DNA of 64,000 nt from an uncultured Eubacteriales bacterium. Lineage in GTDB: Bacteria; Bacillota; Clostridia; Lachnospirales; Lachnospiraceae. The notes under the pieces are model-generated. The model made no database searches, was not told the DNA's origin, and saw nothing but the letters and a program-made list of their open reading frames with translations. How positions within the stretch are numbered: position 1 is the first letter of the stretch; the number at the start of each line of letters is the position of its first letter. Below, piece after piece: positions 25,620 to 39,135 of this stretch. The position numbers were made by a program, and so were the translations under genes. Location: the NCBI GenBank assembly GCA_951800645.1, contig CATOIK010000004.1:62001-126000 (forward strand), read 5' to 3'.

Positions 25620-25648
25620 ATTATATCATTGCCTTTTATAATATGCAA
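25620..25648 (-). promoter_or_regulatory. Internal promoter for rpmJ-rpsM-rpsK-rpsD-rpoA-rplQ
   Basis: Minus-strand TTGCAT (25643-25648), 17-base spacer, TATAAT (25620-25625). It gives an approximately 150-base leader before rpmJ and would let the alpha group be expressed apart from the spc group. Confidence 0.8.
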
Positions 25649-25673: not shown

Positions 25674-25800
25674 GTCGTGCCATTCGCAATTTGCCTTGCA
25701 AATTACTCATGTCGGACTTGCGTCCTATAAAAATGTTTGTGTTCACGGCCCTTGGTGAGCCAGCTCACCATGTCCGTTCTCACTAACATTTTTGCACGAC
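25674..25800 (-). ncRNA. Candidate multi-branched structured RNA directly after infA
   Basis: 127 bases on the minus strand, starting at the base after the infA stop. The outer stem GTCGTGC/GCACGAC encloses three hairpins: a long one (AAAAATGTT-x-GTG ... CAC-x-AACATTTTT with inner ACGG/CCGT and a tip TGGTGAGC/GCTCACCA), GGAC-GCAA-GTCC, and AATTTGC-AAG-GCAAATT. There is no U tract at its end, so it is not a plain terminator. Function unknown. Confidence 0.55.
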
Positions 25801-26019
25801 TTATTTGTCTCTCCAAATGATTCTTCCTTTTGACAGGTCGTAGGGGGATAACTCAATGGTTACTTTGTCTCCCGGCAGGATCCGGATATAGTTCATACGC
25901 AGTTTTCCGCTGATATGGGCCAGAACCTGGTGGCCGTTTTCTAACTCTACCTGGAACATGGCGTTGGGAAGCTTCTCTACAACAGTTCCTTCAATTTCAA
26001 TCACATCTGCTTTTGACAT
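25801..26019 (-). CDS. infA: Translation initiation factor IF-1
   Basis: 72 residues, exactly the usual size. Single OB fold: [58 protein letters not shown]. Blocks the ribosomal A site during initiation. Its stop codon is immediately followed by a large palindromic element. Confidence 0.98.
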
Positions 26020-38905: not shown

Positions 38906-39135
38906 AAAAAAAGTCGCCTCCTTTTCGCACTTTTGGGTTAAGTACGACAAGCGGTGACTGTACACATCTCCGTGTGTGTCATAGCAGACTCACACTGCGT
39001 TACTGCATTTACCTTCGTTCCTACAGCTGTTAAATTGGTACAGTGACTTGTCGTCAGTTTCCTAACTTGACATTCGCTCCACGGAAAACCTGCCATTTGG
39101 CAGCAACCTCACGCTTCACAGCTATCATGTCACAG
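38906..39135 (-). promoter_or_regulatory. Structured leader of the S10 operon
   Basis: About 230 bases from the predicted start to rpsJ. A long-range stem pairs GTACAGTGACTTGTCGT (39038-39054) with ACGACAAG-CGG-TGACTGTAC (38945-38964): 8 perfect pairs plus 8 of 9, enclosing about 73 bases. A CTGCCA/TGGCAG hairpin lies further 5'. This suits an autoregulatory leader, but the ligand is unknown. Confidence 0.6.

Follow-up and report, generated by a model that had tools for sequence, protein, structure and literature searches.

A cloverleaf element behind infA as a member of an apparently uncatalogued RNA family in Lachnospirales

REP/BIME sequences of enterobacteria are structured intergenic repeats of mobile origin, many of which lie after stop codons or in operons and are transcribed. 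The element analyzed here, a cloverleaf behind infA of an uncultured Eubacteriales bacterium (Lachnospiraceae; contig CATOIK010000004.1, in which the window, meaning the whole stretch of DNA analyzed, covers 64,000 nucleotides), belongs to a family that shares with them a structured, intergenic character and placement behind stop codons or within operons. Compared by eye, the architectures differ: REP units are simple hairpins of ~40 nt, whereas the cloverleaf is ~127 nt long and four-way, with a 65-nt arm and often its own -10 box and leader. ERIC (127 bp) and Correia/NEMIS elements, which belong to proteobacteria, resemble the cloverleaf in being palindromic, intergenic and transcribed with genes. 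ERIC folds as a single long stem-loop (PMC2267715), whereas the infA copy is multi-branched and has no architecture in common with it; the common length of 127 nt is a coincidence. The bcr1 repeat of the Bacillus cereus group, listed as a structured family (PMC2267715), is by description a similar case of an intergenic firmicute repeat with conserved secondary structure, but of different size. The structured RNAs of Rfam 15 likewise have covarying folds, but none matches the cloverleaf: neither the infA copy nor eight other members scored above the gathering threshold of any family. Fremin and Bhatt (2021) described thousands of candidate RNAs without names (PMC8040213), and the cloverleaf family is possibly already among them; in a literature search that covered sources other than the candidate tables of that paper, no report of such an element in Lachnospiraceae was found. 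The infA copy is a member of a cloverleaf RNA family that is apparently uncatalogued so far.

The initial annotation had placed a large structured element right after the infA stop codon (TAA, 25803-25801), with a 7-bp outer stem, a composite hairpin, a GNRA tetraloop hairpin and a perfect 7-bp hairpin, and folding bore this out, with all four parts recovered, the last as AATTTGC/GCAAATT (Table 1). The minus strand from 25800 down to 25674 has a minimum free energy of -55.5 kcal/mol versus a mean of -28.5 for dinucleotide-shuffled sequences (z = -7.28; 0 of 200 shuffles as good). The plus strand, whose energy (-45.8; z = -6.75) is likewise far below the shuffled controls, folds well because inverted repeats do so on both strands; the RNA strand was assigned as minus from the conserved tandem G-A mismatches, which are sensible on that strand alone. 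The same mismatches amend the earlier account of the last hairpin, whose 7-bp stem stands but is lengthened on the minus strand by tandem G-A (CAU-GA...GA-AUG). The palindromic tip of the composite hairpin, P2, reads TGGTGAGC-TG-GCTCACCA. Of the downstream promoter, which had been called a consensus one, the -10 box (TATAAT, 25625-25620) is perfect, whereas the -35 box (TTGCAT, 25648-25643) agrees with the consensus at 3 of 6 positions; both are conserved across the genus in the infA-rpmJ spacers.

Table 1. Features at the infA-rpmJ junction, in window coordinates
Feature	Coordinates	Strand	Detail
infA, last gene of the upstream spc-type operon	25801..26019	-	ORF list
Whole cloverleaf element	25674..25800	-	127 nt; base 25800 directly after the infA stop codon
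P1 5' strand, GTCGTGC	25794..25800	-	7/7 pairs with 25680-25674; P1 covaries family-wide
P2, 65-nt long hairpin	25729..25793	-	Tip GAGC-UG-GCUC; CAAG 3' of tip
AUA linker	25726..25728	-	Kept in nearly all close members (alignments)
P3, GGAC-GCAA-GUCC	25714..25725	-	GNRA loop; pairs covary
P4, CAU-GA-GUAAUUUGC-AAG-GCAAAUUGC-GA-AUG, tandem G-A	25681..25711	-	R1 match of 75 bits at 25677-25728
P1 3' strand, GCACGAC	25674..25680	-	Covarying pairs with P1 5' strand
Promoter of the rpmJ-rpsM-rpsK-rpsD-rpoA-rplQ group, TTGCAT-17-TATAAT	25620..25648	-	Sequence; kept in genus spacers

At the DNA level the infA copy is single in its own genome (G000), and a strict sequence pattern run against 299 genomes of the family matched nothing besides this copy; sequence search is therefore blind to the element's relatives. 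This blindness was overcome by using a gapped pattern of the P4 arm, followed by covariance models of the P3-P4 half (R1) and of the full length (R2, built from eight seeds). The gapped pattern retrieved structured relatives at other sites, between fabG and fabF in G001 and in two other Lachnospiraceae; four of its matches (L071-L074) lacked the cloverleaf fold and were rejected as chance. The homologues asked for in the initial annotation were in this way found in many genomes, and many of the genomes searched are MAGs. Neither outcome that the initial annotation had named as speaking against the element, an unremarkable folding energy or a lack of relatives, was seen. With an E-value limit of 0.05, R1 had matches in 96 of the 397 genomes searched from the family; this limit lets in weak matches, some of which may be due to chance. 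R2, which favours long hairpins and whose E-values are rough, found the element in 20 of the 24 genomes of the genus and, at E < 0.001, in 83 of 392 from the order. When genomes were drawn from the whole class, it also matched five that belong to three families outside the order, and at least one of these matches (L327) shows all parts and sits just after a stop codon. The infA copy itself, which is one of the eight seeds, scores 113 bits against R2 (E = 1.9e-21) and carries every defining part: a 7-bp P1, a P2 of ~65 nt, AUA, P3 and P4 with tandem G-A. Further copies in the same genome, which the initial annotation had proposed to look for, appeared by structure but not by DNA search: one more clear copy lies behind spoIVA (G000:C1:150113-150240), and a third is weak. 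Phage records gave no match to the element and viral contigs no true match.

Across the family, P1 consists of 7 bp (G-N-N-R-T-G-C and its complement). P2 has a nearly free stem sequence with a CUUG-type tip and an asymmetric AAG bulge, and among relatives unrelated in sequence its length is most often exactly 65 nt, by far the commonest value. It is followed by AUA, a 4-bp P3 (variants GGGC-GNAN-GCCC, CGGC/GCCG and GCGC/GCGC) and P4, which is broken by tandem G-A and occurs in relatives with the helix variants CAC/GUG, UAU/AUA and AAGC/GCUU. We considered a hammerhead-like interpretation of UGA...GAA in P4 and rejected it, since CAU/AUG is a helix that varies among members (it is CAC/GUG in L091). 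Pairing was also compared with strands swapped between members: of the 20 outer positions of P2, an average of 14.1 pair with their own strand versus 8.9 after swapping, and P1 at 6.9 of 7 versus 3.9, part of the latter contrast being built in because P1 positions were picked for best pairing. When eight members were aligned with plain MAFFT and the structure was supplied by the analyst, both partners differed in 29 of 49 pairs and paired cells made up 94.4%, with none of 500 shuffles as good. For 55 order-level members, both partners change in 48 of 49 pairs, paired cells make up 95.1% and the covariation score is 0.786 (0.171 shuffled; ~0.1 with slid partners), while sliding partners by 1-3 columns lowers the paired cells to 40-46%; these counts favour structure because the alignment was fitted to the model, and alignments A7 and A8 are model-fitted. 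Template switching in palindromes can produce compensatory changes without selection and so mimic covariation. Since the fold is kept while most of the sequence changes, the element probably works as an RNA, and full-length transcripts would matter because the P1 strands flank P2 to P4 on both sides and covary.

The infA copy belongs to class B, the stationary form. P1 is its sole inverted repeat, it has no GTAAC ends, and the longest word that its flanks have in common is 5 nt; the terminal inverted repeats plus target duplication of a MITE were not found in it. In class B as a whole, a 7-mer is common to both flanks in 6 of 111 copies versus 2.4 by chance, and class A ends are absent. The 5' flank carries instead a weak leader consensus of about CACGNNAGCAATGA, directly after which P1 begins, and roughly 20 copies have a TATAAT-like box whose end is ~17 nt before P1; the infA copy has the end of infA in place of both. 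On the 5' side and sense strand, 42 of the 111 copies have a stop codon no more than 20 nt away, 29 a -10 box, 8 a terminator and 5 a tRNA 3' end, against 17, 6, 1 and 0 on the control side and strand. Any such signal was found in 76 of 111 copies versus 22 of 111; the contrast and not the absolute number is the result, because related copies were treated as independent and the simple ORF rule gives false stops on both sides. The upstream gene lies on the opposite strand in 49 of 109 copies of both classes, and the placement is therefore not always a 3' UTR. Members also occur within operons (fabG-fabF, pheS-pheT) and downstream of existing terminators.

These placements bear on whether the element is a cis-acting transcription terminator or insulator between the spc and alpha operons, which we regard as improbable even though it lies between infA and the alpha promoter, many members are located at gene ends, and rpsI-type members hold a plain intrinsic terminator within P2. 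As the initial annotation had noted, no U tract follows the element, yet the last bases of the long hairpin are UUUUUAUA; the U5 of P2 lies only within P2's own stem, and no intrinsic terminator (GC-rich hairpin plus U tract) was called on the minus strand of the infA copy. A plain terminator is further disfavoured by the copies inside operons or behind existing terminators and by the conserved P1 3' strand, P3 and P4, which would be useless if transcription stopped at P2; relatives without the element show no obvious substitute terminator. The location among ribosomal protein genes could also suggest that the element serves ribosomal-protein autoregulation, as leader or riboregulator for the alpha operon or infA, but this is highly implausible: the element lies upstream of the alpha promoter and hence outside the alpha mRNA unless infA transcription reads through, its relatives stand behind unrelated genes (spoIVA, gltD-like, rubrerythrin, ABC transporter, tRNAs), and no Rfam leader matches it.

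Class A, the mobile form, ends in 18-bp inverted repeats (GTAAC...GTTAC), with GTAACAGTTC before P1 and its complement after P1'. In 19 copies the flanking 8 bases match at 7.0 of 8 positions versus 3.15 when shuffled and ~2-3 when slid by 1-3 bases, and 15 of the 19 have an 8-bp target duplication with 7 or 8 matches. Copies occur in both orientations and in high numbers, with 66 end matches in G385 and many copies also in G415 and G012. Class A is a MITE, that is, a non-autonomous DNA transposon. GTAA ends and 8-bp duplications are hallmarks of IS66. MITEs of the IS66 type and class A are alike in both features, but the rest of the ends differs; the IS66 element of G018, for example, ends in GTAAGCGTCAAATAAG, not GTAACAGTTCAGCC. 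Mobilization of class A by an IS66 transposase was unsupported, given this difference beyond GTAA and the absence of an IS66 transposase from G385 and G415.

Several other repeats were seen alongside. Some class A copies (G385:C1:37152-37274 and others) are shortened to 123 bp, having lost P4 and kept P1-P3 and the ends. A different MITE, without a cloverleaf, is present in the genome of the infA copy (G000:C17:18642; ends GTAACAGTTCAGCC...GGCTGGACTGTTAC, 8-bp duplication AAAGATAT), and a palindrome with more than 30 copies on many contigs of G012 (AATTTGCGAAGCAAATT) was set aside as a different repeat. Tandem arrays of the element with a period of ~120-165 nt, some units lacking the P1 5' strand, occur in G159:C7, G153:C53, G326:C3, G274:C7 and G022:C3, and G000:C30:58-566 holds a tandem array of six weak R1 matches, mostly spaced by 82 nt.

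Class B recurs at orthologous sites of several species in seven cases (gene names read from protein sequences, gene calls by simple ORF rules). It stands behind spoIVA in four species of the genus, the source of the infA copy among them, and behind a gltD-like gene in two genera; the further sites are rpsI, rubrerythrin, an ABC transporter, fabG and, within pheST, pheS. The spoIVA copies have diverged gradually from one ancestor, as their P2 identities of 52-82% show. The fold and the length of P2 are kept at P2 identities of 22-46% for fabG, pheS, the gltD-like gene, rubrerythrin, two rpsI pairs and several ABC transporter pairs, which may alternatively reflect separate insertion events behind the same gene. 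At infA itself the element is mostly absent from the spacers of genus relatives. In a tree of the infA flanking genes, G000 falls into one clade with G018, which has kept P1 and P4 and lost most of P2 and P3, with G010, which retains half of P4, and with G004, G014 and G001, which lack the element. With one intact, two broken and three absent copies in this clade, the element came and went at infA and is dispensable there, since sister species have it degraded or absent. No locus-specific function is conserved at this site, and conservation lends no support to a specific spacer or processing role there, as the closest relatives have fragments or nothing.

This history would also suit a purely mobile intergenic repeat, MITE- or REP-like, in which the structure serves transposition (as hairpin DNA or in end recognition), copies behind genes are tolerated and the infA copy is a decaying fossil. 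The inverted ends, target duplications, copy numbers and mixed orientation of class A agree with it, as does the dispensability of the infA copy. We consider it possible but doubtful for the family, because class B lacks such ends and duplications, has a different conserved leader and a strong sense bias, and keeps orthologous placement in several species with the P2 sequence replaced. The initial proposals of a regulatory RNA, a processing site or a MITE-like element hold in part: the family is RNA-like by its covariation, sense placement and -10 boxes, and MITE-like in class A, whereas the infA copy has neither MITE ends nor a target duplication.

Computation has shown the family with its fold and covariation, a sense-strand location after gene ends, tRNAs, terminators or promoters, and relatives of MITE type that carry target duplications. 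The cloverleaf may most parsimoniously be read as a transcribed, mobile-derived RNA. A function as RNA is favoured by the sense placement, the -10 boxes of its own, the whole-length P1 covariation and the strand-specific motifs. Our leading reading of the element behind infA, in which we place even confidence, is a class B member of a cloverleaf RNA family found in Lachnospirales and a few families nearby; it is most likely co-transcribed with infA and forms the 3' end of the spc mRNA. As part of this 3' UTR the RNA would fold into a four-way cloverleaf of P1, a 65-nt P2, P3 and P4 with tandem G-A. The element would have spread partly by transposition, with selection presumably acting on the RNA. 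The 23-bp arm of near-constant length, its bulge and the G-A motif could form a docking module for an RNase or a dsRNA-binding protein, and the compact 3' module, protected or processed, might stay on its carrier transcript or be cut from it. Any effect at infA would concern the 3' end of the spc mRNA, which the element may protect.

More tentatively, class B could be a widespread non-coding RNA of Lachnospirales, expressed from its own promoter, in 3' UTRs or behind tRNAs, that acts in trans with a protein partner and from which the class A MITEs were derived. SINEs arose from cellular RNA genes, and a descent of class A from class B, if true, would be their bacterial counterpart. With 48 of 49 pairs changed on both sides, presence in about one fifth of the sampled genomes of the order and absence from Rfam, the family represents a large unexplained RNA signal in abundant gut bacteria of humans and animals. 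Questions on RNA domestication and 3'-end biology in Clostridia become directly testable through the arm of near-constant length, the tandem G-A and the existence of both a mobile form with inverted ends and a stationary one with leader and promoter.

Two leaders were also noted in the window. The rpmJ 5' leader (25620-25464, minus strand) starts with ATGGCGACTTTGTTGARAT and contains a hairpin with strands that change in step among members of the genus; the leader has no Rfam match and is possibly an alpha-operon leader not listed so far. At 39048-39127, also on the minus strand, lies the already known S10-Clostridia ribosomal leader (Rfam RF03136, 94 bits).
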